In this document: piece by piece, positions 3,328 through 15,414 of the stretch
How positions within the stretch are numbered: the first letter of the stretch is position 1
Layout: every line of letters starts with the position of its first letter
Assembly (NCBI GenBank): GCA_030698405.1
Contig: JAUYMU010000055.1
Location: forward strand, 1 to 64,000
Source: Bacteroidota bacterium
Lineage (GTDB): Bacteria; Bacteroidota; Bacteroidia; Bacteroidales; Prolixibacteraceae
DNA length: 64,000 nt
Direction of reading: 5' to 3'
Program-made: the position numbers and the translations under genes
Notes under the pieces: model-generated
Databases searched by the model: none
Told to the model about the DNA's origin: nothing
Seen by the model: only the letters and a program-made list of their open reading frames with translations

Positions 3328-3780
3328 TTACGTAAGGGTAAAATATTGATATTGCAGCTCAAAAGTTTCGATGGCCAGTGCGGTTTGCTCAGCATTCAAA
3401 TCGCTGTGGCTCCACTTTTTTGGCCAGGCATGTTTCACATTCCAGGTCATCAGCGGTTCGTGGGTTTCATTTAACAGCGAAATGGTCAGGTCAACCGGAT
3501 TGATAATGAGCGACTGAAAGGCATCATTGCACCATGTGGTTAGCAAGTCCGAGTCTTTTACCAGACCGCGTTTCAGAACAAGTATTGGATATTTGGCGCG
3601 TACCGGCAACACATGTTCGTAACGATTTTCGCCACCTTCCTTTTTCGATTCGGTATCTAATTCCATGTTGAGACCTGAAACCGATTGGAACCGGCTGTCG
3701 ATATCGCTATTTCCAATACCTGTAAATACCACCTTGAAATGAAACCCAACCGGTGGATAATTTCGAGCTGAATCAGCCAT
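3328..3780 (-). CDS. eCIS inner-tube protein (gp19-like), second copy
   Basis: A 150-residue member of the T4 gp19-like tail-tube family. Diagnostic features are the opening PVGFHFKVVF, the SVSGLNMELDTE segment, an LVLKRGLV strand, and the LNETHEPLMTWNVKHAWPKKW block that ends tube proteins. It is paralogous to the adjacent 143-residue tube protein but diverged, as with Afp5 versus Afp1. A likely role is the tube ring or adaptor nearest the baseplate, with the other copy forming the bulk of the tube. It starts 9 bases after the stop of the first tube gene. Confidence 0.9.
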   Translation of the reverse strand: MADSARNYPPVGFHFKVVFTGIGNSDIDSRFQSVSGLNMELDTESKKEGGENRYEHVLPVRAKYPILVLKRGLVKDSDLLTTWCNDAFQSLIINPVDLTISLLNETHEPLMTWNVKHAWPKKWSHSDLNAEQTALAIETFELQYQYFTLT

Positions 3781-3789
3781 GTTTTAAGA

Positions 3790-4221
3790 TTAACCGTTTT
3801 GAATAACCAGACCTTCGTGTGCAAGTTCGAGGCTTTCGATGGCGGCCTCGTTGGCGTCACTTTTCATGTCAGGAGCTTGAATTTTAACTGGCCATGCCTG
3901 CTTCACCTTATAAACTACTACCGGTTCATGATTTTCGTTTAGTAGGTTAATAATAAGGTCTCTGCGCTCAATGGTGTTGAGTTTTACCGTATTCAGCCAG
4001 TTGAAAAACTCGTTGTCGTTTGCAAAGGTGCCACGCTTGAGGGTAATGTTTCCGAATTTATGCAATCCCGGCATTTTGGTTTTGTTGTATTCAGGGCTGC
4101 TGCCTTCGCGGTATTCGATCACCTCGTTTTCGATGGTCAGGCCTGTTACTTCGGTAAAGCCGATACGGGTACCGCCCCATTCGACCTGGAAATGAAATTT
4201 CGGTAATGGATAATTTGCCAT
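3790..4221 (-). CDS. eCIS inner-tube protein (gp19-like), first copy
   Basis: A 143-residue tail-tube protein (PKFHFQVEWGGTRIGFTEVTGL; ITLKRGTF; LLNENHEPVVVYKVKQAWPV). Hexameric rings of such proteins stack into the rigid tube that is expelled when the sheath contracts. It follows the second sheath gene after a 201-bp spacer that includes a strong palindrome, unlike the tight spacing elsewhere. That may allow tube mRNA to be produced or stabilised differently from sheath mRNA. Confidence 0.92.
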   Translation of the reverse strand: MANYPLPKFHFQVEWGGTRIGFTEVTGLTIENEVIEYREGSSPEYNKTKMPGLHKFGNITLKRGTFANDNEFFNWLNTVKLNTIERRDLIINLLNENHEPVVVYKVKQAWPVKIQAPDMKSDANEAAIESLELAHEGLVIQNG

Positions 4222-4319
4222 AACAGTAAATTTTTATTTGTGAATAATTTATTTTTAAAAAAAAATAATTCTAAGTACTTGAATTCCAAACTCACCCCGA
4301 AGTCCGCGAGCGGCCTTCC

Positions 4320-4344
4320 CCCCTCTCTTTTAAAAAGAGAGGGG
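4320..4344. repeat. Perfect 11-bp palindrome between sheath and tube genes
   Basis: CCCCTCTCTTT (4320-4330) pairs with AAAGAGAGGGG (4334-4344) across a 3-base loop. The 4222-4422 spacer is otherwise A/T-rich near the tube start and C/G-rich around 4300-4375 (GGTGGGCAGGGGTGAG). No U-run follows the stem on the minus strand, so a terminator is not supported. An mRNA-processing or stabilising hairpin, or a dispersed palindromic repeat, is more likely. Confidence 0.65.
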
Positions 4345-4422
4345 AAAGCACACCGCAGGTGGGCAGGGGTGAGTATGAAATTTTTAATCTGTGTTCATCT
4401 GTGTAATCTGTGGTAAAACAAT

Positions 4423-6429
4423 TCAGTTATTGCTTGAAAGCATCTTGTGACTGAAACGAAGAATGATGAATTCGGCTGGACGAACAACTGCCATCCCAAT
4501 TTCTACGATCATTCTGCCTTCAAGTATATCGAGTTCAGTCATGGTTTCGCCAAGCCCGACATTTACAAAAAAGGCCTGATCAGGCTTTGCACCCTGAAGG
4601 GCACCCGCCCGCCATTGCAGTATCAGGAAATTTTCTATCATTGATCGGACTTTCACCCAGGTGTTGGCATCGTTGGGTTCAAATACAAAAGGTTCCGTAG
4701 CTTTTTTCGTGCTTTCTTCCACCATGATGAAAAACCTCCGTACCGGAACATACCGCCATTCATTGTCGTTTCCGGCCAATGTTCGAGAGCCCCATACCAG
4801 CGTTCCTTTTCCGGTAAAAGCACGAATGGCATTTACCGATTTTCCGGTTGTGTGAACATTCAGGTCTTCCTGATCGCGGCTGTCAATTTTAACCACCGGA
4901 CCAATAATAGAATTGACGCTCACATTGGCTGGAGCTTTCCATACACCACGGGTGCGGTCTACAGCCGCGTAAACACCTGCAACACTGCCCGATGGAGGCA
5001 TGGTGCGCATGTGCTCAACTACTTTGTCTTTAACTCCGTGAAAGAAACTGTGTGATGCGAAAACTGCTTGCTCTGCCTGACTTTCATAAAAAAGTTCAGC
5101 GTCAAGAAGAGTTTGGTAACCACTCAATATTTTTTCAACGCTGCTGCCCAAAGCTGAAATAATACTCAGGCTACCGGCAATGCTTGCAGGGAAGTTGGTG
5201 GCATCGGCAGCAATTGAGGCATAAGTAGCACCGCCAAGCCAATCGGGTTCAAGTGGTGTATAAAGTGCATCAACTACAGCGGGCGTTCTTGTTGCCAGTG
5301 TATTGGCCACGGTCTTTGCATTTTTTTCAATTTTGATGAGAGATACAATTGCATCAGTTAACTCGGTAGTTGCCTTCAATACCTCAATATCTTTTCTGAT
5401 ACCTGAACCAACAACAGAAATCGTCTCTGCCTTTTTAAAGTTGCCGGCAATGGTCGCCAGAAGGTTAAGATAATTGCTCATGTTACCCTTTATCGACACG
5501 TTTCCGGCAATATTAGCCTCATAACTTGTCAGTAATTCTTTCACATATTCGCTTCCCCGACTCCGTAATGCGGCCTTATCTACAACCGGATCTGTAATGT
5601 CGATGGCGGTATTGGTTTCAGCCTGCCTGGCAGCAAGAGTGGTCATCAGAGCCTTTTCTGCATCATCTTTTGAATACGTAGTGAAATTTAATATTTCAGT
5701 ATTTGGAGCGGCCTTATCAAATATGTGCAACTGCCTGAGACTAATGTCATAACTGTAACTGGCAATGATCCAAGGATAATAGGCGGCGCCGTAATTGAGA
5801 AAATTGATGCCGATGTTGTCGCGAAAATCGGAGATTGGTTTATTGGATACATCTTCAGGAAGATATCCTTTCAAGATATCAAAAATGCAAAACCGATCCT
5901 GCAAGTCTGCACATTGTTTCAATGCCAGCTTCTGCAATTCCGAAAATTTCGACAGATCAGGGTTATCGCCAACATCTTTCAATCCAACGGCATCGGGCGA
6001 CAACAAAAGTGTCGGTTCATCAAACTTCCGCAGCAAATCAAAACCAGTTTTTAGCCTGTCAAAATTTATGGTGTCAGTGAATGATCCTACACTTACGATG
6101 TAGCAGTCACCGCCTCCGTTGTCATAAAACTGGCGCAAAGCATCGTAAAGGTAAAACTGCTTGTTTGGAGTTACCGAATCCAGCGAATTTCCTTTTGTGT
6201 TATCAGCAATAACTTTATAACTTGAAGGAGTATAGCCAATTCCGTATAGTGATTGAAATTCAACCAACGATTTAATCTTGACCGGAAGATCAATGAGGAG
6301 CTTTCCATTGGGGTCAGCAGCTTTTTCGGTATAACCGACAAAAGCAGGAATTGCTGTTTCCACCTGGGCAACCGATGGCGGGAAGAGTGGAACTTCCTTA
6401 ATGTAAACGCCTGGAGTTTTGTATGCCAT
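4423..6429 (-). CDS. eCIS contractile sheath protein, long paralogue
   Basis: A 668-residue sheath protein of the gp18/Afp family. The N-terminus AYKTPGVYIKEV and the C-terminal block (WRYVPVRRFFIMVEES, VFEPNDANTW, ILEGRMIVEIGMAVVRPAEF) are nearly the same as in the neighbouring 504-residue sheath, so the two arose by duplication. The extra 160 or so residues lie roughly between 270 and 450 and are rich in Ala, Thr and Ser with helical character (SLIKIEKNAKTVANTLATR), matching a surface insertion in the middle domain. In Afp/PVC systems several sheath paralogues coexist, the rarer ones near the baseplate. It starts 27 bases after the stop of the shorter sheath gene. Confidence 0.94.
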   Translation of the reverse strand: MAYKTPGVYIKEVPLFPPSVAQVETAIPAFVGYTEKAADPNGKLLIDLPVKIKSLVEFQSLYGIGYTPSSYKVIADNTKGNSLDSVTPNKQFYLYDALRQFYDNGGGDCYIVSVGSFTDTINFDRLKTGFDLLRKFDEPTLLLSPDAVGLKDVGDNPDLSKFSELQKLALKQCADLQDRFCIFDILKGYLPEDVSNKPISDFRDNIGINFLNYGAAYYPWIIASYSYDISLRQLHIFDKAAPNTEILNFTTYSKDDAEKALMTTLAARQAETNTAIDITDPVVDKAALRSRGSEYVKELLTSYEANIAGNVSIKGNMSNYLNLLATIAGNFKKAETISVVGSGIRKDIEVLKATTELTDAIVSLIKIEKNAKTVANTLATRTPAVVDALYTPLEPDWLGGATYASIAADATNFPASIAGSLSIISALGSSVEKILSGYQTLLDAELFYESQAEQAVFASHSFFHGVKDKVVEHMRTMPPSGSVAGVYAAVDRTRGVWKAPANVSVNSIIGPVVKIDSRDQEDLNVHTTGKSVNAIRAFTGKGTLVWGSRTLAGNDNEWRYVPVRRFFIMVEESTKKATEPFVFEPNDANTWVKVRSMIENFLILQWRAGALQGAKPDQAFFVNVGLGETMTELDILEGRMIVEIGMAVVRPAEFIILRFSHKMLSSNN

Positions 6430-6456
6430 AATGTATTTGGTTATTTAAATTAATTA

Positions 6457-7971
6457 CTACGATACAACCATTTTGTGACTGAATCTGAGGATTATGAACT
6501 CAGCAGGACGAACAACAGCCATACCGATTTCAACGATCATTCTTCCTTCGAGGATGTCGAGTGCGGTCATGGTTTCGCCCAATCCGACACGGACAAAAAA
6601 GGCTTCATCAGGTTTGGCTCCCATCAGTGCCCCATCACGCCACTGCAGAACCAGAAAGTTTTCTATCATCGCACGCACTTTGGTCCAGGTGTTGGCATCA
6701 TTTGGCTCAAATACAAAAGGTTCGGTTGCCTTTTTCACGCTTTCCTCGACCATATTGTAGAATCTGCGGACACTGATATATCTCCACTCATTGTCATTTC
6801 CGGCCAGCGTCCGTGCGCCCCATACCAGAATTCCTTTTCCGGTGAAAAAGCGAATGGCATTGATTGATTTTCCAGTTCCCGTCACATTCATATCCTGCTG
6901 ATCGTTGTCGTCAATTTTCACCTGAGGTTCAAATACATAATTGAGGCTCACATTGGCAGGCGCTTTCCATACTCCACGCGTACTGTCAACCATTGCATAA
7001 ACTCCTGCAATTGTTGAAGCCGGTGGAAGTATTACCTTAAAATTGTCGAGTAGCTTTTTTATCGTGGCGTACAACTGGCTGTTCATGTGGTATAGTGATT
7101 CCTGCGGGTTGACAACATTGGCTTGTCCGGGTGCAGGATATTTCCGGAGAAATTTTACTGAAGCAAGCGCATCAACTCCGCCAGTGATCGCGATTTTACT
7201 CTCATCGGCATAATAGGCCAGTGTCGTTACAAGCCACGGATAATAAGCTGCCCCATAGGTCAGGTTGTTGTTGCCAATACCGTTGCGGAAATCATCACTG
7301 AGTACCGTACCCCCGCCAACATCATAATACATATCCATCTTACCTCCCTTGAAGTCTGCCATTTTTTGAGTGGTCGAAGTGTCAAGATATAAATCAGCGA
7401 TCACAACACGATCCATTAATTCAGCAGCCTGTGTAAGCGCTTTGGAATACAATGAATAGAATTCGGCCTTTGAAAGCGATACAGCATCAGTAAATACGAT
7501 CATGGTTGGCTCGTCTTCTTTTCTCAAAGCCGCAAGCGATGCCGCCATTTGGTTCGAATTGGCGAAACTCGCATCACCATATTTTCCGGAGGAAATAATG
7601 AAACACGGACCACCTCCATTGGCAAAATACATCTGCAGGCAGTAATGAAGCCGAAACTGCAAACCCCCGTAAGGGTCCTTGAGGTCGCCATCCAAAACGA
7701 ACGCTCCCGAACCATCCTTTTTGATTTTGACACCGTTTATGGGATTGGCATCGTTGGTAAAATCAGTTTGTTTTGGAAATCCAAAGATCTGCTCAAAGTC
7801 GTTAAGCGATTTGATGCGTTTCGGTTTGTTGACAAGCGACAGTCCGTTGAAACTGTCGTTTTCGGTGTACCCAATGAAAGCGGGAATGGCTGTTTCTACC
7901 TGTGCCACCGAGGGCGGCAGTTTGGAGATTTCTTCAACATATACTCCGGGTGTTTTGTAAGTCGTTGCCAT
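6457..7971 (-). CDS. eCIS contractile sheath protein, short paralogue
   Basis: A 504-residue sheath subunit, probably the main one. It opens TYKTPGVYVEEISKLPPSVA, has the GGGPCFIISSGKYGD segment near 120, and ends in the conserved handshake domain (ISVRRFYNMVEES, AGNDNEWRYI, ILEGRMIVEIGMAVV). N- and C-terminal arms in this fold interlock neighbouring subunits so that contraction spreads along the particle. It lies 20 bases downstream of the unidentified 403-residue gene and just upstream of the long sheath paralogue. Confidence 0.94.
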   Translation of the reverse strand: MATTYKTPGVYVEEISKLPPSVAQVETAIPAFIGYTENDSFNGLSLVNKPKRIKSLNDFEQIFGFPKQTDFTNDANPINGVKIKKDGSGAFVLDGDLKDPYGGLQFRLHYCLQMYFANGGGPCFIISSGKYGDASFANSNQMAASLAALRKEDEPTMIVFTDAVSLSKAEFYSLYSKALTQAAELMDRVVIADLYLDTSTTQKMADFKGGKMDMYYDVGGGTVLSDDFRNGIGNNNLTYGAAYYPWLVTTLAYYADESKIAITGGVDALASVKFLRKYPAPGQANVVNPQESLYHMNSQLYATIKKLLDNFKVILPPASTIAGVYAMVDSTRGVWKAPANVSLNYVFEPQVKIDDNDQQDMNVTGTGKSINAIRFFTGKGILVWGARTLAGNDNEWRYISVRRFYNMVEESVKKATEPFVFEPNDANTWTKVRAMIENFLVLQWRDGALMGAKPDEAFFVRVGLGETMTALDILEGRMIVEIGMAVVRPAEFIILRFSHKMVVS

Positions 7972-9236: not shown

Positions 9237-9830
9237 TTATGAGTTGCCCGGTTCTTCAATCCTCACTTGTTTAATAATACCGCGAGTTTCAGTTGCGCTT
9301 TCCCTTTCTAATTGCAACAGTCTTACTTTATAGCACACAAAAGGGTGCTGCTTTCCGCCCAACGTGCTCCACAGGTAATTCAATTGTTCAAAACTGAGCG
9401 TATATAAATCCAGAATAATGCGAAAATCATCAGGCAGTCCTTCAACCTGGGTCACACTATTCTTTAAGCTGAACGAGTATTTGCCCTGAAAAAAAGTTAT
9501 GGCATGTGAAAGGTAAATAAGTGCATTTTCGTAATTGGTCATACAGGCTGTCACCAGAATAAAAAGATTCAGGTTAATAGGAGGATTCTTATAAGTTACC
9601 ATATCATTATTCAAAATGGAATACGTTGGATGGTTTTTCATCGTCGCCTCTTCCGAGAAGTTAACGAGGGAAAGAAGGACGTTGTTAGTATTTTTTAGAG
9701 CATCATCATCCAGTCGCACAATACTTTGCAGGATTGCTACGGGCGATACGACCCCATCACCGTTTTTCTTTACCTGGTCGATATGGGCATTCAGTTGTTC
9801 TGCCAAAAATTTCAGGACTGGATGTATCAT
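9237..9830 (-). CDS. DUF4255/Pvc16-type tail terminator (cap) protein
   Basis: A 197-residue protein matching the DUF4255 family that caps the distal end of the tube and sheath in Afp/PVC-type particles. It starts IHPVLKFLAEQLNAHI, has a central NLFILVTACMTNYENALIYL segment, and ends YLWSTLGGKQHPFVCYKVRL, which resembles the family's LW..LG....PSVxYKVR block. It is the first gene of the minus-strand operon. A candidate promoter lies about 270 bases upstream, leaving a long leader. Confidence 0.85.
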   Translation of the reverse strand: MIHPVLKFLAEQLNAHIDQVKKNGDGVVSPVAILQSIVRLDDDALKNTNNVLLSLVNFSEEATMKNHPTYSILNNDMVTYKNPPINLNLFILVTACMTNYENALIYLSHAITFFQGKYSFSLKNSVTQVEGLPDDFRIILDLYTLSFEQLNYLWSTLGGKQHPFVCYKVRLLQLERESATETRGIIKQVRIEEPGNS

Positions 9831-10103
9831 GATAGAAATATTAGCTTAAACTATTTACCAGCGAGCAAAAGATTAAATCCTGCACGGAATGATTTAAGGT
9901 TCTTTTCTATTTTAAGGAAGCATTCTGATGGAAATCTCTTTGATTGTTTCAATTTTTATTTCCTGTTTGGGTCAGGGTTTGATTTAAAAATTGAAAATAT
10001 AGGCTACCAACTATCCATCAAAAATTCAATCAAGATTTTAGCTATCGAGCTTAGGTTCTGTCTGTTTACAGCGTATTGATTTTCAAACAAACAAGTGAAC
10101 AAC

Positions 10104-10134
10104 CAAATATACAACATTCAGATGTTAAAGTCAA
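10104..10134 (-). promoter_or_regulatory. Candidate promoter of the eCIS operon
   Basis: On the minus strand TATATTTG (10104-10111) fits the Bacteroidetes -7 consensus TAnnTTTG, with a TTG (10132-10134) 20 bases upstream as the -33 element. Transcription would start near 10097, giving a leader of roughly 265 nt before the first eCIS gene. The rest of the 556-bp spacer 9831-10386 is A/T-rich; besides this and the divergent promoter I see no gene in it. Confidence 0.5.
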
Positions 10135-10335
10135 TACCAGCTGTAAAATAATATTTCTGTATGTATTTATCCGAAAAGAGATAAAAAGGTAACCCACAAA
10201 ATCCAATTATTTTTTTTATTTTTCGAAATTTAACATTTCAATTTCTTGTGACCATAACTATAAATGCTCAAATCGTCATATTTTGGAATGATTACAGAAT
10301 GACTATTTAGAAACATATCAAATAATCTATATATG

Positions 10336-10366
10336 TTGGTTTCTTCTGTTTTTAAGCTTATCTTTG
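10336..10366 (+). promoter_or_regulatory. Candidate promoter of the methyltransferase/radical SAM cluster
   Basis: TATCTTTG at 10359-10366 matches TAnnTTTG exactly, with TTGG at 10336-10339 giving a 19-base spacer. The start codon of the methyltransferase is 20 bases downstream of the -7 box, so the leader is very short. It diverges from the eCIS promoter about 225 bp away. No metal-regulator operator (for example an ArsR-type inverted repeat) was recognised. Confidence 0.6.
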
Positions 10367-10386
10367 CACCTCAAAATTGAAATAAA

Positions 10387-11028
10387 ATGAATACAATCGA
10401 AATTGCAGGAAGATACTCGACTCTGGCAAATGAAACCTGTTGCCTGTCGTGTGGTGGCGCTGCAGAAAAGAGCGAAGCTAAAACCGGGGAGGTTTGCATT
10501 GATTTGGGAAGCGGACGCGGAACAGATGTTTTACGTTTGGCTGAAGAAGTTGGCGAATCTGGTTTTATTTACGGAGTGGATGTTACTGAAGAGATGGTTC
10601 GAAAAGCAACATCGACCGCTTCTAAAATGGGCATTGAAAACGTAAAATTTGTTTTGGCCGATCTTGAGCAAATACCTTTGGAAAGCGAAATTGCTGATCT
10701 GATTATTTCAAATTGCACTCTGAACCATGTGAGCAACAAAACCAAAGTCTGGGACGAAATTTATCGTTTGCTAAAAAATGGCGGACGATTTGTGATTAGT
10801 GATATTTATTCGAGTGAACCCGTTCCTGAAGAATATGCCAAAGATCCTGAAGCCGTTGCTGAATGTTGGGCCGGATCAATCACTAAAACCGAATACCTAG
10901 CGATTATTAAAAATGCCGGATTTAAAGATTTCAGCATTCTTGAAGAAAGCCAACCCTATCCGAAAGGAAAGATTGATGTTTCGAGCTTTACGATTACCGC
11001 GACGAAAGACGAATTTAGTTGCTGTTAA
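10387..11028 (+). CDS. ArsM-like SAM-dependent methyltransferase, shortened and Cys-rich
   Basis: A 213-residue class I methyltransferase. SAM-binding motif I is IDLGSGRGTD (38-47), followed by YGVDVTEEM and later FVISDIYSSEPVPEEY. The order and wording follow arsenite methyltransferases, including SNCTLNH (Cys110) and AECWAGSI (Cys160), the latter at the position of a conserved arsenic-binding Cys. It differs from typical ArsM: the usual N-terminal region is compressed to a CCLSCGG motif (Cys18, 19, 22) directly before motif I, and the protein ends in Cys-Cys (212-213). Arsenite, another metalloid/thiol, or the peptide encoded just downstream are all possible substrates. It is first in the cluster, 170 bp before the small peptide gene. 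Confidence 0.8.
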   Translation: MNTIEIAGRYSTLANETCCLSCGGAAEKSEAKTGEVCIDLGSGRGTDVLRLAEEVGESGFIYGVDVTEEMVRKATSTASKMGIENVKFVLADLEQIPLESEIADLIISNCTLNHVSNKTKVWDEIYRLLKNGGRFVISDIYSSEPVPEEYAKDPEAVAECWAGSITKTEYLAIIKNAGFKDFSILEESQPYPKGKIDVSSFTITATKDEFSCC

Positions 11029-11198
11029 AACAGAGTTTCAAGTTCAAGGTTTCAAGTTCCAAGTTTGCTGAATAATTTGGATATTGGATATTCAGAATTA
11101 GATATTTTTTGAAAAGTCTGAGAGTATTTTATTTCGAACCTTGGTTCATTTAAACTACTTTTATTCACTATAGTTTAATCAATGCAAAATTCTCAAGA

Positions 11199-11294
11199 AT
11201 GAAAAGTTTAGTAAAAAAAGTCCGCAAAGGACAGGTTAAACAGGCACAATGCTGTGCCAAACAATCACAGATTATTGCCGGATGCCACGATTAA
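11199..11294 (+). CDS. Small Cys-containing peptide, candidate radical SAM substrate
   Basis: A 31-codon ATG-to-TAA frame between the methyltransferase and the radical SAM gene. The N-terminal half is very basic (K2, K6, K7, R9, K10, K14), like a leader peptide. The C-terminal half reads QCCAKQSQIIAGCHD, with Cys18, Cys19 and Cys29. A short peptide placed immediately before a SPASM-type radical SAM protein is the standard arrangement for ribosomally made, post-translationally modified peptides, where the enzyme links Cys sulfur to carbon. No database support is available to me and no clear promoter precedes it. A chance frame is possible, but composition and position argue for a real gene. 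The Cys-Cys pair echoes those in the neighbouring methyltransferase. Confidence 0.55.
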   Translation: MKSLVKKVRKGQVKQAQCCAKQSQIIAGCHD

Positions 11295-11314
11295 GGCATT
11301 TAAAGTTGATTGAT

Positions 11315-11394
11315 GATTAACGATTAACGATTGATGATTGAAGAAGTACTCTGAAGTCTGAAAATCAATAATCGTTAATCTCTAATCGTTAATC
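11315..11394. repeat. Inverted repeat between peptide gene and radical SAM gene
   Basis: GATTAACGATTA (11315-11326) is complementary to TAATCGTTAATC (11383-11394), and a second overlapping copy (11322-11331) pairs with ATCGTTAATC at 11371-11380. The transcript could fold into alternative long hairpins. Similar A/T-rich palindromic units occur in other spacers of this window, so it may be a dispersed repeat. Here it lies where an attenuator would reduce enzyme relative to peptide expression. Confidence 0.5.
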
Positions 11395-11410
11395 TCTAAT
11401 CAGTTTTTCA

Positions 11411-12715
11411 ATGCAACTCTCCAAATATAACATCACATCAAAAATAAAAGACTCCGGCAATTGGTTCGTAGTGAATTCATTGTCGGGGCAAGCCGATATT
11501 CTCGATCAGGAAACTTTCGGGCAATTGAAAAATATTGACGAAACAAATCAGGAACTGATTGAAAATGGTTACATCGTTGACCCGGTTCAGGAAAAGAAAT
11601 TGTTTCGCGAAAAGTACCTGAAGTTTCTTGACGACCGCGAGAAGGATGAGGTTCAAATCTTTTTCGTGACCAACTATTCGTGCAATTTCGATTGCTCCTA
11701 TTGCTACCAGGCTGGCTACGAAGCTTTGCCTGTCGCGTTGTCGAAAGAAGTTACCGACTCGTTTTTTGAATATATCCAGAAAGAGTTTTCCGGAAGACGA
11801 AAATATATCACCCTTTTTGGCGGCGAACCTTTTATGAATGCACCGCGCCACAAGGAAAATATCGAATACATTATAGAACGGGCGACCGCGTTAAATCTTG
11901 AAATTGCCGCGGTTACCAACGGATACAATCTGGAAGAATACATTCCCATTTTGAAAAAGGGAATTATTCGCGAAATTCAGGTGACAATAGACGGAACCGC
12001 CGATGTTCACAACCAGCGTCGTTATCTGAAAGGCGGCAACCCGACTTTCGATCGCATTGTGCGCGGCGTTGACCTGTTGATTGAAAACAACATTCCGGTC
12101 AATCTCCGGATGGTAGTTGACAAACAAAATATTGGCAATCTGCCTGATTTGGCTCAGTTTGCCATCGACAAAGGCTGGACTGCATCTCCGTTATTTAAAA
12201 CCCAGTTGGGCCGTAATTACGAATTGCACGAATGCCAGGCCAACCACTCGAAATTGTATTCGCGGTTGGAACTGTACCAGGATTTGTACAATTTGCTGCA
12301 ACAATTCCCGCATATCAGTGAATTCCACAAACCTGCATTTTCGGTCTCAAAATTTTTGTTCGAGCAGGGCGAAATGCCTGCTCCGCTTTTCGATGCCTGC
12401 ACCGGAACCAAAACCGAATGGGCCTTCGATTTCACCGGTAATGTTTATGCATGCACGGCTACAGTCGGAAAGCAGGGCGAAAGTCTGGGCACTTTTTATC
12501 CTGAAGTCAGGAAAAATACGGAAGCTGTTGAGGAATGGCAGGAACGCGATATTTTATCGATCCCAAAATGCCAAAGCTGCAACCTGAGCCTGATTTGTGG
12601 CGGCGGCTGTGCATCGATGGCAAAAAATTACAACGGATCACTGAACAGCCACGATTGCCGTCCGGTTACAGAATTGCTGGAACTGGGTATTGGTCATTAT
12701 TTTAACGAAGAATAG
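11411..12715 (+). CDS. Radical SAM/SPASM peptide-maturase-like enzyme
   Basis: A 434-residue enzyme expected to cleave S-adenosylmethionine at a [4Fe-4S] cluster bound by CNFDCSYC (Cys91, 95, 98; CX3CX2C). GGEP at 137-140 is the SAM-binding motif. The C-terminal SPASM domain carries ligands for auxiliary clusters: Cys330, Cys348, then C387-X2-C390-X5-C396-X3-C400 and Cys416, the canonical CX2CX5CX3C spacing. The N-terminal 75 residues (NWFVVNSLSGQADILDQETF) resemble the small recognition-type domain often preceding the barrel in peptide-modifying members. It follows the Cys-peptide gene, and its stop directly abuts the ATG of the DUF1847 gene. Sulfur-to-carbon thioether formation is the commonest chemistry of SPASM enzymes but is inferred here. 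Confidence 0.9.
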   Translation: MQLSKYNITSKIKDSGNWFVVNSLSGQADILDQETFGQLKNIDETNQELIENGYIVDPVQEKKLFREKYLKFLDDREKDEVQIFFVTNYSCNFDCSYCYQAGYEALPVALSKEVTDSFFEYIQKEFSGRRKYITLFGGEPFMNAPRHKENIEYIIERATALNLEIAAVTNGYNLEEYIPILKKGIIREIQVTIDGTADVHNQRRYLKGGNPTFDRIVRGVDLLIENNIPVNLRMVVDKQNIGNLPDLAQFAIDKGWTASPLFKTQLGRNYELHECQANHSKLYSRLELYQDLYNLLQQFPHISEFHKPAFSVSKFLFEQGEMPAPLFDACTGTKTEWAFDFTGNVYACTATVGKQGESLGTFYPEVRKNTEAVEEWQERDILSIPKCQSCNLSLICGGGCASMAKNYNGSLNSHDCRPVTELLELGIGHYFNEE

Positions 12716-13264
12716 ATGGACTGCACCAACTGCGCGTACGACAAACAATGCCGGTCAACGGAAACCTGCAAAGCAACTTCGTTTGATTGTGATGAGGTGA
12801 TTCAGAAGTATGCCGAAGAATCAAAAATTGTTCAGGCAGCTGCAAGTTTGGTTGATGAAGGACGTGCCGGAACATTGTCGCGGCTTCAGGAAACCATTGC
12901 TTTTGCCCGGAAAATGGAATACAAGCGAATTGGGTTGGCGTATTGCTATGGCATGGAAAATCAGGTCAAACAAATTACCGAAATTATTCGTAGTAATGGA
13001 CTGAATGTGAGACCGGTTTCCTGCACTGTTGGAGGAATACCGCAGAACGAAGTGAACCCTGAAAGTTCAATATGCAATGTCTCCTGCAACCCAATCGGGC
13101 AGGCACTGCAATTGAATCACGAAAATGTTGATTTGGTAGTTATGATCGGACTTTGTTTGGGACACGACATTTTGTTTCAGCGCGAAGTGAAAGCCGATTG
13201 TACTACTTTGGTGGTAAAAGACCGGGTGCACAATCATGCACCTTTGAAAGTGTTGGAAGATTAA
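12716..13264 (+). CDS. DUF1847-type cysteine-rich metal-binding protein
   Basis: A 182-residue protein with 11 cysteines, matching what I know of DUF1847. The N-terminus has five Cys in 25 residues (Cys3, 6, 12, 18, 25), a likely metal or Fe-S site. The remainder looks like an alpha/beta domain (RIGLAYCYGMENQVKQI, then VDLVVMIGLCLGHD) with Cys77, 103, 120, 124, 147 and 162. The biochemical role of the family is not known to me. Zero spacing to the radical SAM gene and 29 bases to the thioredoxin fusion imply the three products work together, perhaps as a sulfur, metal or electron carrier. Confidence 0.82.
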   Translation: MDCTNCAYDKQCRSTETCKATSFDCDEVIQKYAEESKIVQAAASLVDEGRAGTLSRLQETIAFARKMEYKRIGLAYCYGMENQVKQITEIIRSNGLNVRPVSCTVGGIPQNEVNPESSICNVSCNPIGQALQLNHENVDLVVMIGLCLGHDILFQREVKADCTTLVVKDRVHNHAPLKVLED

Positions 13265-13293
13265 AAAAACCAGAAAATCAAAAAACATATACC

Positions 13294-14562
13294 ATGAAAG
13301 AAATAGTAGAAGCAGATTACGAAAAAGAAGTATTAAACGGTGGAAGCGTATTGGTCGATTTTTATTCAACAGAATGTGCACCATGTGAGGCCGTTGCACC
13401 TAAACTGGAAGGTCTTGAAAAGCTTTTCGGAAAGGAAATCAAATTTGTGAAAATTTTCCGTCAGGGAAACCGCGAACTGTCGGATAAGTTAATTGTAAAA
13501 AGCTCTCCGACACTTTTATTTTATCAGGATGGGGAAGAAGTTTGCGGTCGTTTGGCGGGTGGCATTAAACGCTCCGAAATTGTTCGCGAACTGAAACATG
13601 TTCTGGGAAAAGAAAAAGTAACTGAAATAATGGCAACGCAGCAACCTTTTGTAACCGATGTTGATGTGGCCATTTTGGGTGCCGGCCCGGGCGGTTTGAC
13701 AGCAGGATTGTATCTGTGTCAGGCTAAAATAAATACTGTTTTAATCGACATTGCGCTTCCCGGCGGATATGTTTCTACTACCCACATGGTGTCGAACTAT
13801 CCCGGATTTATTGATCCGCAGCCCGGATATCTGCTCGGACACAACATGTCGGAGCAGACCAAACAATGCGGAACAACCTATAAAGTGGCGGTTGACGTGA
13901 CAAAAGTCGATCTTCAGAAAAAAGAAATTACCATTGACAATCAGGAAACCATTCGCGCCAAACGAATTGTTGTCGCAACCGGAACTTCACCAAACAAAAT
14001 GGGCATTCCCGGAGAAGTGGAATTCCGCGGCAAGGGAATTTCGTATTGCGCGACCTGCGATGCCAAATATTTTGGCGACAAGGAAGTAATTGTTGTTGGC
14101 GGTGGAAATTCCGCCATCGAAGAAGCTGATTTTATTGCGAAGTTCGCTTCCAAAATCACCATCATACACCAGTTCGACCAACTTCAGGCCAACAAAACTG
14201 CGCAGGAAAAAGCTTTTTCCAATCCAAAAATTTCGTTTCTGCTATCGCACGAACCACGTGCGATTAAAAAGGACGGAGATAAAATGATGGTTGAGGTGGA
14301 GGATATGAAAACCAAAGAAATGAAAACGATTACTGCCGATGGTATTTTTGTTTTCATCGGGCTAAAACCTAACCTCGAAATCTTCAACAATCAATTTGAA
14401 CTCGATGAGTGGGGCTATATCAAAACCGATGAAGATAAACGAACCAATATTGAAGGCGTGTTTGCGGTGGGCGATGTGACCAGCAAAAAGTACAGGCAGA
14501 TTACAACTGCTATTGCTGATGGAACCATTGCTGCCATTTCAATAACAAGGGAAATCGGATAA
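13294..14562 (+). CDS. Thioredoxin/thioredoxin-reductase-like fusion protein
   Basis: A 422-residue fusion. Residues 1-108 form a thioredoxin fold with active site CAPC (Cys28, Cys31) and the cis-Pro at SPT (71-73). Residues 122-422 form a flavoprotein of the thioredoxin reductase family, with GAGPGGLTAGLYL (129-141), redox pair CATC (Cys252, Cys255), GGGNSA (269-274) and the FAD motif GVFAVGD. The usual NADPH-phosphate-binding HRRxxxR is replaced by HQFDQLQ (292-298), so NADPH is unlikely to be the donor; NADH or a ferredoxin-type donor is possible. A longer frame begins upstream inside the DUF1847 gene, but the ATG at 13294 starts the domain properly. It probably supplies or removes electrons for the Cys-based chemistry of its neighbours. 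Confidence 0.9.
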   Translation: MKEIVEADYEKEVLNGGSVLVDFYSTECAPCEAVAPKLEGLEKLFGKEIKFVKIFRQGNRELSDKLIVKSSPTLLFYQDGEEVCGRLAGGIKRSEIVRELKHVLGKEKVTEIMATQQPFVTDVDVAILGAGPGGLTAGLYLCQAKINTVLIDIALPGGYVSTTHMVSNYPGFIDPQPGYLLGHNMSEQTKQCGTTYKVAVDVTKVDLQKKEITIDNQETIRAKRIVVATGTSPNKMGIPGEVEFRGKGISYCATCDAKYFGDKEVIVVGGGNSAIEEADFIAKFASKITIIHQFDQLQANKTAQEKAFSNPKISFLLSHEPRAIKKDGDKMMVEVEDMKTKEMKTITADGIFVFIGLKPNLEIFNNQFELDEWGYIKTDEDKRTNIEGVFAVGDVTSKKYRQITTAIADGTIAAISITREIG

Positions 14563-14664
14563 ATTGGGGTGCGTAGATTTTTAATCTCCGATATTGTTTT
14601 TTTGCAATTCGCGATTAAAATCCGCGACACCCATGCAGATATTAGTGGTTAAGATTAAATTCAG

Positions 14665-14716
14665 AAATTCCGGTATTTATTTTCCTGAAAAGGGGAGTGA
14701 AGCCGGAATTTTTTTT
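14665..14716 (+). terminator. Candidate intrinsic terminator after the thioredoxin fusion gene
   Basis: AAATTCCGG (14665-14673) pairs with CCGGAATTT (14703-14711) and is followed by a T-tract to 14716. The loop of 29 bases is long but can partly fold itself. The position fits: about 100 bases after the last gene of the redox cluster and just before the next promoter. Confidence 0.5.
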
Positions 14717-14726
14717 CCTGCAACTA

Positions 14727-14756
14727 TTGCTTTTTGAATTTCTATTATTAGCTTTG
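14727..14756 (+). promoter_or_regulatory. Promoter of the membrane-protein gene
   Basis: TAGCTTTG at 14749-14756 is a -7 element, with TTG (14727-14729) placed 19 bases upstream. The predicted transcription start falls at the AAAGTACTTT palindrome, only about 13 bases before the ATG, so the message is nearly leaderless. Confidence 0.55.
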
Positions 14757-14762
14757 CAACTC

Positions 14763-14772
14763 AAAGTACTTT
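14763..14772. promoter_or_regulatory. Palindromic candidate operator, copy 1
   Basis: AAAGTACTTT is a perfect 10-bp palindrome just downstream of the -7 box. The surrounding 16 bases, TCAAAGTACTTTTAAA, recur exactly in the promoter of creD (15912-15927), at the same distance from a TTTG-ending -7-like box. A shared site flanking a gene for a winged-helix regulator suggests this is its binding site, placed to block transcription initiation. Confidence 0.5.
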
Positions 14773-14775
14773 TAA

Positions 14776-15414
14776 ATGAAAACAAACTCAGCCAATCCAA
14801 AGGAAGATCTTCAGGCCATTCGCGAGATCATGGAACGATCTTCCAAGTTTTTGTCGTTAAGCGGTTTATCAGGCGTTTTTGCCGGCGTATGTGCTTTGAT
14901 CGGCGCTGCGGTTGCCTGGTTAATTATTCTTGATTCGGGACATGTGCAATACGATGAATACATGCGTAGTCTGGGGGCTTCGCCAACGGCTAACATCAGG
15001 CTTTATCTGGCAATTGACGCCTTACTGGTTTTGGGCTTTGCCATTTTGGGAGCTGTTTACTTTTCTTTCAGGAATGCAAAAAAAGCAGGCCAGCAATTCT
15101 GGACCAATTCAACCAAACGTTTGGTCGGACACCTTCTGATTCCGCTGGTTTCAGGCGGTATCTTTGCGATCATTCTGGTTTTCCGAAACAACATCGAACT
15201 GGTAGCTTCAGTAATGCTGATTTTTTATGGCTTGTCGCTGGTAAATGCCGGAAAGTTTACGCTGGGTGAGATTCATTATCTCGGCCTGACTGAAATCGTC
15301 CTGGGTATTCTTGCCGGAATTTTTATCAATCACGGTTTGCTGTTTTGGGTCGTGGGATTTGGAGTGGTGCACATTGTTTACGGAACAGTGATGTATTATA
15401 AATATGAGCGGTAG
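14776..15414 (+). CDS. Integral membrane protein of unknown function
   Basis: A 212-residue inner-membrane protein with about six hydrophobic helices (around 30-52, 75-98, 115-137, 143-158, 163-184, 187-207). The N-terminus is a soluble amphipathic stretch, EDLQAIREIMERSSKF. No enzymatic motif is seen. It precedes the winged-helix regulator gene and shares a promoter motif with creD, so these three probably belong to one cell-envelope response unit. Similar trios of membrane protein, HTH regulator and CreD are known in Bacteroidetes from general experience, but I cannot name this family. Confidence 0.75.
   Translation: MKTNSANPKEDLQAIREIMERSSKFLSLSGLSGVFAGVCALIGAAVAWLIILDSGHVQYDEYMRSLGASPTANIRLYLAIDALLVLGFAILGAVYFSFRNAKKAGQQFWTNSTKRLVGHLLIPLVSGGIFAIILVFRNNIELVASVMLIFYGLSLVNAGKFTLGEIHYLGLTEIVLGILAGIFINHGLLFWVVGFGVVHIVYGTVMYYKYER

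Follow-up and report, generated by a model that had tools for sequence, protein, structure and literature searches.

A gene for a radical S-adenosylmethionine (SAM)/SPASM maturase beside that of a small precursor peptide is a usual layout of antibiotic or signal peptide clusters, and bacteriocins diversify. The pyrroloquinoline quinone (PQQ) and mycofactocin systems combine a near-constant short peptide, with a Glu/Tyr or Val-Tyr core, respectively, and a radical SAM/SPASM enzyme across phyla; to our knowledge, cofactors derived from peptides by radical SAM enzymes are few. Furthermore, a radical SAM enzyme occurs with an ArsM-like enzyme in arsinothricin-type clusters (ArsL, ArsM). This report is focused on a gene cassette at positions 10387–14562 of contig JAUYMU010000055.1 from a Bacteroidota bacterium; all positions refer to the window, i.e., the whole stretch of 64,000 nt that was analyzed. 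The five genes listed in a preliminary description are confirmed on the + strand at these positions: a small methyltransferase with terminal Cys motifs, a 31-codon peptide, a SPASM-type radical SAM enzyme, an 11-Cys DUF1847 protein, and a thioredoxin–thioredoxin reductase fusion. The pathway for a modified Cys peptide proposed there appears strongly backed by the linkage and conservation reported below. With slightly better than even confidence, we read the locus as a cassette of the ribosomally synthesized and post-translationally modified peptide (RiPP) type, which would make one constant, cofactor-like Cys peptide, probably for sulfur/redox chemistry.

The 31-codon open reading frame (ORF) at 11199..11294 (+ strand; MKSLVKKVRKGQVKQAQCCAKQSQIIAGCHD), which encodes a putative precursor or carrier peptide of 31 aa, is on sequence grounds a genuine gene, around which the system is centered. 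The peptide consists of a leader-like MKSLVKK and a fixed C-terminus, AQCCAKQSQIIAGCHD. The first count of such peptides was based on a motif fixing C, C, K, G, C, H, D, and the stop; the count was repeated in all six-frame open stretches of 128 loci with a profile lacking the fixed motif. The same 120 of the 128 loci were recovered (weakest E 7e-7), with no second match below 0.01 per locus, by this profile, which was derived from motif-found peptides and which a very different peptide could escape. The last 16 residues in the 120 loci follow the pattern A Q C C A/S/T K x S/T x x x x G C H D: the A, both C, K, G, C, H, and D are found in 120/120 and the Q in 119/120, and the frame ends at D in 120/120. 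This end is conserved across Bacteroidota, Spirochaetota, and Myxococcota, and M1, S3, A16, C18, C19, A20, K21, S23, G28, C29, H30, and D31 are invariant in a 45-row alignment. The eight loci lacking a peptide are L095–L099, whose contigs start inside the radical SAM gene, L122 at a contig end, L117 (genome G082), and L053 (genome G008). At the DNA level, 115 distinct cores differ pairwise at codon positions 1, 2, and 3 in 17300, 13967, and 62686 cases, respectively, and all three stop codons are used among the peptide genes; this third-position-biased drift and the use of all three stops imply coding constraint, not recent copying. A short ORF lies between the methyltransferase and radical SAM genes in nearly every locus extending that far (66 loci of named contigs, and the radical SAM matches at E ≤ 1e-60 in 39 of 149 relatives). 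The window peptide has no NCBIfam match at E ≤ 1, and its single Pfam match is at chance level (E 0.19; 11.5 bits against a cut-off of 27). None of four divergent homologues is matched in NCBIfam at E ≤ 1e-30, although this threshold is too stringent to be informative for such short peptides.

Conservation and linkage of the peptide are far beyond chance. Among the 120 peptide loci, the radical SAM gene is present in 118, the methyltransferase in 117, and the fusion in 110, and all four core genes are found in 107 of the 128 loci. In 149 relatives, the peptide is detected in 40 genomes, the radical SAM enzyme in 39 (E ≤ 1e-60), the fusion in 38 (E ≤ 1e-100), and the cassette-type methyltransferase in 40 (hits at E ≤ 6.2e-57, the next hit, at 4.6e-47, being of canonical ArsM length), and these are nearly the same genomes. 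Six of 395 evenly drawn Bacteroidota genomes carry the peptide, all at E ≤ 1.5e-11 with none weaker up to the limit of 1e-3. The radical SAM enzyme is matched in nine of the 395 at E ≤ 1e-60; six of these matches (E ≤ 1e-200) fall in the same six peptide genomes, and the remaining three (1e-70 to 1e-77) are in genomes with no peptide. The peptide is also found in 32/198 Spirochaetota genomes, where 31 stretches besides L064 all contain the methyltransferase and radical SAM genes, and in 14/146 Myxococcota genomes, where the same applies to 12 stretches besides L093 (one of the 14 genomes, G844, was left out); gene order in Myxococcota is often changed, with the peptide beside the fusion. The expectation that the five genes travel together is thus borne out for the peptide, radical SAM enzyme, methyltransferase, and fusion; the DUF1847 gene is optional and does not follow the others. 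Among incomplete loci, that of G060 is without the fusion where its contig ends, that of G121 has the fusion on another contig, and a radical SAM fragment stands at a contig end in G088. The radical SAM match in G008 lacks the first 93 residues, and the preceding 555 bases contain neither peptide nor methyltransferase; this is a truncated gene or a misassembly.

Chance adjacency, in which the small ORF would not be a gene, could draw on two exceptional genomes described below (G126 and G082) and on the start of the window peptide, which has no clear Shine-Dalgarno sequence; GGAG- or AGGA-type sequences occur in six of eight upstream regions inspected, the other two being from Bacteroidales. 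The probability of this explanation is nevertheless negligible, as it is contradicted by the linkage, the profile constancy, and the mostly third-position drift over the 115 cores, and the six peptide genomes in the 395 all carry the radical SAM gene. The peptide is considered real because three phyla share its sequence, the DNA changes fall mostly at third codon positions, and it has a radical SAM gene in the same locus in 118/120 cases, even where the order is shuffled.

The radical SAM/SPASM enzyme (434 aa; 11411..12715, + strand) contains a CxxxCxxC motif (Cys91, Cys95, and Cys98) and seven cysteines in the SPASM region. Among homologues, the three motif cysteines are retained in 98/98, 98/99, and 99/99 and each of the seven C-terminal cysteines in 102/102, and the cluster cysteines are invariant in a 30-row alignment. 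Together with these cysteines, the small precursor nearby in 118/120 peptide loci (the exceptions to the pairing being L116 and L121) places the protein among putative radical SAM/SPASM RiPP maturases. In sequence, the enzyme comes closest to the solved structures of CteB (5wgg, E 1.1e-14) and SkfB (6efn); in fold, its AlphaFold model, with a mean predicted local distance difference test (pLDDT) score of 90.3, comes closest to CteB (5why, 5wgg), followed by anSME and SuiB. In the secondary structure of the model, residues 1–80 form three strands and helices, and this N-terminal β/α domain may resemble the RiPP recognition element, or leader-binding domain, of such maturases. All NCBIfam scores among the best 25 models listed are below their cut-offs, including 158/600 for CefB NF038107, 133/525 for TIGR04463, 121/600 for Clo7bot, and 116/340 for PapB; two spirochaetal homologues and one myxococcal homologue are also under the cut-offs of the models matched. 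Pairs of the enzyme diverge down to 31% identity, with a median of 52%. The peptide and the radical SAM enzyme very probably act together. A conserved GRNYELHxCQ loop is found at residues 267–276, in which an extra cysteine, Cys275, is kept in 96/102 homologues; the only model stretch with pLDDT below 50 (271–275) is inside this loop, which may contain a candidate substrate-side residue. In addition, two of the three nearest outgroup relatives of the enzyme, from other Bacteroidota, adjoin Cys-containing ORFs of 52–61 aa with a SVEELEERLE-type leader (L203:5023-5208 and L204:5579-5737). Neither these small ORFs nor a large neighboring ORF in L203 has a Pfam match, and they are possibly a separate, undescribed RiPP family.

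The ArsM-like SAM methyltransferase (213 aa; 10387..11028, + strand; Cys18, 19, 22, 37, 110, and 160) has CCLSCGG near its start and SCC at its end. The eleven best PDB fold matches of its model (pLDDT 88.5) are all ArsM/AS3MT chains, and its SNC and EC cysteines, which we take to be the As-ligand cysteines of ArsM, align with those of 5evj and 8xt7. Cys110 is kept in 99/101 homologues, Cys160 in 100/102, and Cys22 in 98/98; the other N-terminal cysteines are less constant (Cys18 85/98, Cys19 86/98, Cys37 80/99), and the CC pair is absent in L115. The methyltransferase reaches 194 bits against the arsenite methyltransferase model NF008823 (cut-off 263), whereas a canonical ArsM of the host scores 336 bits, over that cut-off; compared with the latter, the cassette protein is without the N-terminal 42 residues, including a SCCGSSSCC motif, and an internal 18-residue stretch. 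A further observation concerns an extra Cys pair in either the N-terminal half of the peptide or the C-terminal tail of the methyltransferase: 66 distinct pairs of proteins comprise 28 with it in the tail only, 19 in the peptide only, 17 in neither, and 2 in both (Fisher p=5e-5, phylogeny uncorrected). This comparison covers 77/124 parsable loci, or 66 after removal of repeated peptides, most Myxococcota having dropped out; the split is a hint that the peptide and methyltransferase may act together.

These likenesses raise an explanation in terms of metalloid handling, in which As(III) or some other soft element would be captured by the peptide cysteines and methylated in place by the methyltransferase, the radical SAM enzyme would add a further group, and the reductase would provide electrons. 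The ArsM/AS3MT fold matches and the two core cysteines kept in homologues are consistent with it, as is a spirochaetal locus, L177, in which the cassette is beside an ars operon and a second piece of the thioredoxin–thioredoxin reductase fusion is found. The host also has an ars operon with ArsR-, ArsC-, ArsM-, and ACR3-like proteins (names besides ArsM given by eye), but this stands on a separate contig (G000:C24, L126:5766-8475). With those four proteins as queries, ars genes were found in 1/127 cassette loci (L177) and in 1/40 control regions. Canonical ArsM occurs in 24/41 cassette genomes and in 45/108 others (Fisher p=0.07, phylogeny uncorrected), a slight excess in favor of metalloid handling that falls short of a clear association with the cassette. 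The methyltransferase score below the cut-off, the separate operon of the host ArsM, and the rarity of ars flanks all argue against metalloid handling, and the fixed CHD end would be unneeded for arsenic binding; we consider this explanation unlikely. The first three of these findings also weaken the metalloid, or arsinothricin, branch of the preliminary description. A cluster of the arsinothricin type was rejected as the methyltransferase is far below the cut-offs of both NCBIfam arsinothricin ArsM models, NF040538 (104.9/500 bits) and NF040539 (105.4/240 bits).

The thioredoxin–thioredoxin reductase fusion (422 aa from ATG; 13294..14562, + strand) has two CxxC sites, the first retained in 100/100 and the second in 101/102 homologues. 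It scores 324 bits against TIGR01292, below the cut-off of 343.45, and carries in addition a thioredoxin domain at its N-terminus (PF00085, 61.4 bits; cut-off 23.5). An alternative TTG start given by the ORF finder (13153) would overlap the DUF1847 gene. The DUF1847 protein (182 aa, 11 Cys; 12716..13264, + strand) is an accessory protein that matches PF08901 at 134.7 bits, over the gathering cut-off of 25. A match of at least 50 bits, divergent copies included, is present in 38/128 loci, in Bacteroidota and Spirochaetota, and in 0/12 Myxococcota stretches; DUF1847 is therefore outside the constant core. The protein has no solved relative at E ≤ 0.1, and its name was not found in the open-access literature searched. 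Overall, Pfam assigns the methyltransferase, the radical SAM enzyme, DUF1847, and the fusion of thioredoxin with a pyridine nucleotide-disulfide oxidoreductase, and no NCBIfam cut-off is reached by any of the five proteins among the best 25 models listed for each.

Proteins of sulfur type flank 39/127 loci and 1/40 control regions, with 61 genes in 965 kb of flank compared with 1 in 590 kb of control (40 genomes). The queries were sulfide:quinone-reductase-like proteins, a CoA-disulfide reductase-rhodanese fusion, rhodanese, DUF302, YeeE-type PF04143, and TusA- and DsrE-like proteins. Pfam cut-offs are exceeded by rhodanese, DUF302, and PF04143, and the CoA-disulfide reductase part is below its NCBIfam cut-off (441 of 579 bits); TusA, DsrE, and a protein of L172 were named by eye, and DUF302, found in 100/149 genomes, is too common to inform. 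The tie of the cassette to sulfur metabolism is suggestive only, because the queries were picked after the flanks had been viewed. That the chemistry concerns sulfur rather than a metalloid is, in our estimate, a little short of an even chance. The flanks of 26/127 loci, all of them Bacteroidota, also contain a short gene whose product has a zinc ribbon of the IS1595 type (PF12760; L112:5992-6468 and 25 others); in most cases this gene is divergently oriented and directly precedes the methyltransferase, and it is possibly a domesticated regulator.

In the preferred reading, i.e., a RiPP-type cassette for a cofactor-like peptide, the first step, backed by conservation and codon drift, would be synthesis of a peptide of 30–50 aa. 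The basic leader (in the window, MKSLxKK) would then be bound by the radical SAM/SPASM enzyme through its recognition-like N-terminal domain. On the invariant AQCCxKxSxxxxGCHD end, the enzyme would place a cross-link; by analogy with the nearest characterized relatives, this is most likely a thioether formed with a Cys sulfur, the linkage that marks ranthipeptides and sactipeptides. The ArsM-like methyltransferase may methylate a thiolate, or a soft atom held by cysteine, on or with the peptide, and the fusion would hold the cysteines reduced via NAD(P)H. The product may be an intracellular thiol/persulfide carrier or redox cofactor, linked in some lineages to sulfide or sulfane sulfur, as the flanks suggest. 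A bolder version, which we regard as rather doubtful, is an undescribed ribosomal thiol cofactor: the radical SAM enzyme would cross-link the invariant Cys-His-Asp end, perhaps through a bond between a Cys sulfur and the adjacent His or Asp, the methyltransferase would methylate it, and the reductase would recycle it, yielding a persulfide/redox carrier in the anaerobic sulfur metabolism of Bacteroidota, Spirochaetota, and Myxococcota. The constant peptide core beside a radical SAM enzyme diverging to about 31–40% identity is the pattern of a cofactor or carrier, not of an antibiotic, and a cofactor-like rather than antibiotic product is likely. A secreted antibiotic or signal peptide, i.e., a bacteriocin-like RiPP, would agree with the action of the relatives CteB and SkfB on RiPP precursors; nevertheless, the core does not vary among the three phyla, inspection of the flanks by eye revealed no exporter, protease, or immunity family that recurs, and PADLOC gives domain-level hits only. 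Such a product is highly unlikely and was dismissed on the constant core and the lack of an exporter recognizable by eye.

Several observations weigh against the preferred reading. The sulfur-type flanks are uneven among lineages (loci grouped by radical SAM identity, since near-identical genomes give overlapping loci), being found in 13/61, i.e., 10/29 in Bacteroidota, 2/27 in Spirochaetota, and 1/5 in Myxococcota. They are absent from the closest relatives of the window (L034–L050), the sulfide:quinone-reductase-like proteins are named from weak matches (64 and 34 of 525 bits), and the choice of queries after viewing counts here as well. Among recurring flank families (three or more lineages or loci, judged by eye), no protease or exporter was recognized, and hence no candidate for removal of the leader, if any. 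Genome G082 has the methyltransferase and lacks the peptide and radical SAM enzyme. Genome G126, which is 99% complete, contains an intact peptide (L116:8339) with no match to the radical SAM family at E ≤ 1e-10 genome-wide and no cassette methyltransferase or fusion at the cut-offs used; it is the strongest evidence against the need for a radical SAM step. The peptide of L116 adjoins another methyltransferase family, which is also present in L107, L108, and L123.

The orphan peptide of G126 is near TusA-, DsrE-, and heterodisulfide-reductase-like genes, and this setting favors an explanation in which the peptide would stay unmodified and serve as a small carrier or chaperone of a persulfide, a metal, or a methylated thiol, whereas a separate small molecule would be made by the radical SAM enzyme and methyltransferase. 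Genome G075 agrees with this as well: the peptide and methyltransferase share a contig, and the fusion is on a different one together with a radical SAM fragment. By contrast, the radical SAM gene accompanies nearly all peptide loci, in shuffled order too, the nearest characterized relatives modify peptides, and the outgroup genes in L203 and L204 adjoin small Cys ORFs of their own; an unmodified carrier is quite improbable.

Beyond the cassette, contractile tail-like genes are found upstream at 3328–7971 on the − strand, comprising a gp19-type tube protein and two sheath proteins by Pfam, which are probably a contractile injection system; genes that look similar by eye are also upstream in L045. 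No structured RNA reaches the gathering score in 9800–15000. A plasmid-borne cassette was rejected, with no match in the plasmid collection at E ≤ 1e-40, and a defence system was rejected as well, PADLOC returning only a domain-level mad2 hit for the methyltransferase and viperin-like hits for the radical SAM domain.

The search of the open-access literature, outside of which most subscription journals lie, revealed no description of the peptide, the motif, or the gene set, in agreement with the preliminary description, which knew of none. Thioredoxin and ArsM are absent, by word search, from the main text of the RiPP-mining papers PMC10352776 and PMC9062424. NCBIfam searches with ten further proteins gave no name for the system, the limit being too strict to inform for peptides. 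If the preferred reading is true, the cassette represents a new route to a thiol cofactor and provides functions for the ArsM-like clade, the thioredoxin reductase fusion, and DUF1847; furthermore, some genes resembling arsenite methyltransferases would do something else. Should the bolder version be true, the cofactor itself would be new.

Compared with known systems, the cassette is most similar to the thioether maturases CteB, PapB, CefB (NF038107), and TIGR04463, with which it shares the radical SAM and SPASM cysteines, the β/α N-terminal domain, and the adjacent small Cys peptide, CteB being the nearest solved structure by both sequence and fold. It differs from them in its short leader, its core that is unchanged from phylum to phylum, and the attached ArsM-like methyltransferase and thioredoxin reductase. 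Unlike in the PQQ and mycofactocin systems, neither a peptidase nor a stand-alone PqqD-type protein was recognized by eye in the recurring flanks, the radical SAM enzyme reaches 61 bits against the mycofactocin maturase cut-off of 265, and the core is Cys-Cys...Cys-His-Asp rather than Glu/Tyr (PQQ) or Val-Tyr (mycofactocin). The methyltransferase has the fold and two core cysteines in common with ArsM/AS3MT, although it is below the NCBIfam cut-off and without ars neighbors except in L177, and the cassette is distinguished from arsinothricin clusters by a radical SAM enzyme of the SPASM peptide-maturase type and a peptide gene. Judged from its sequence, the cassette is of the radical SAM/SPASM peptide kind, and what is new is that an ArsM-like enzyme and a fusion with thioredoxin reductase accompany a Cys-His-Asp peptide that stays constant.

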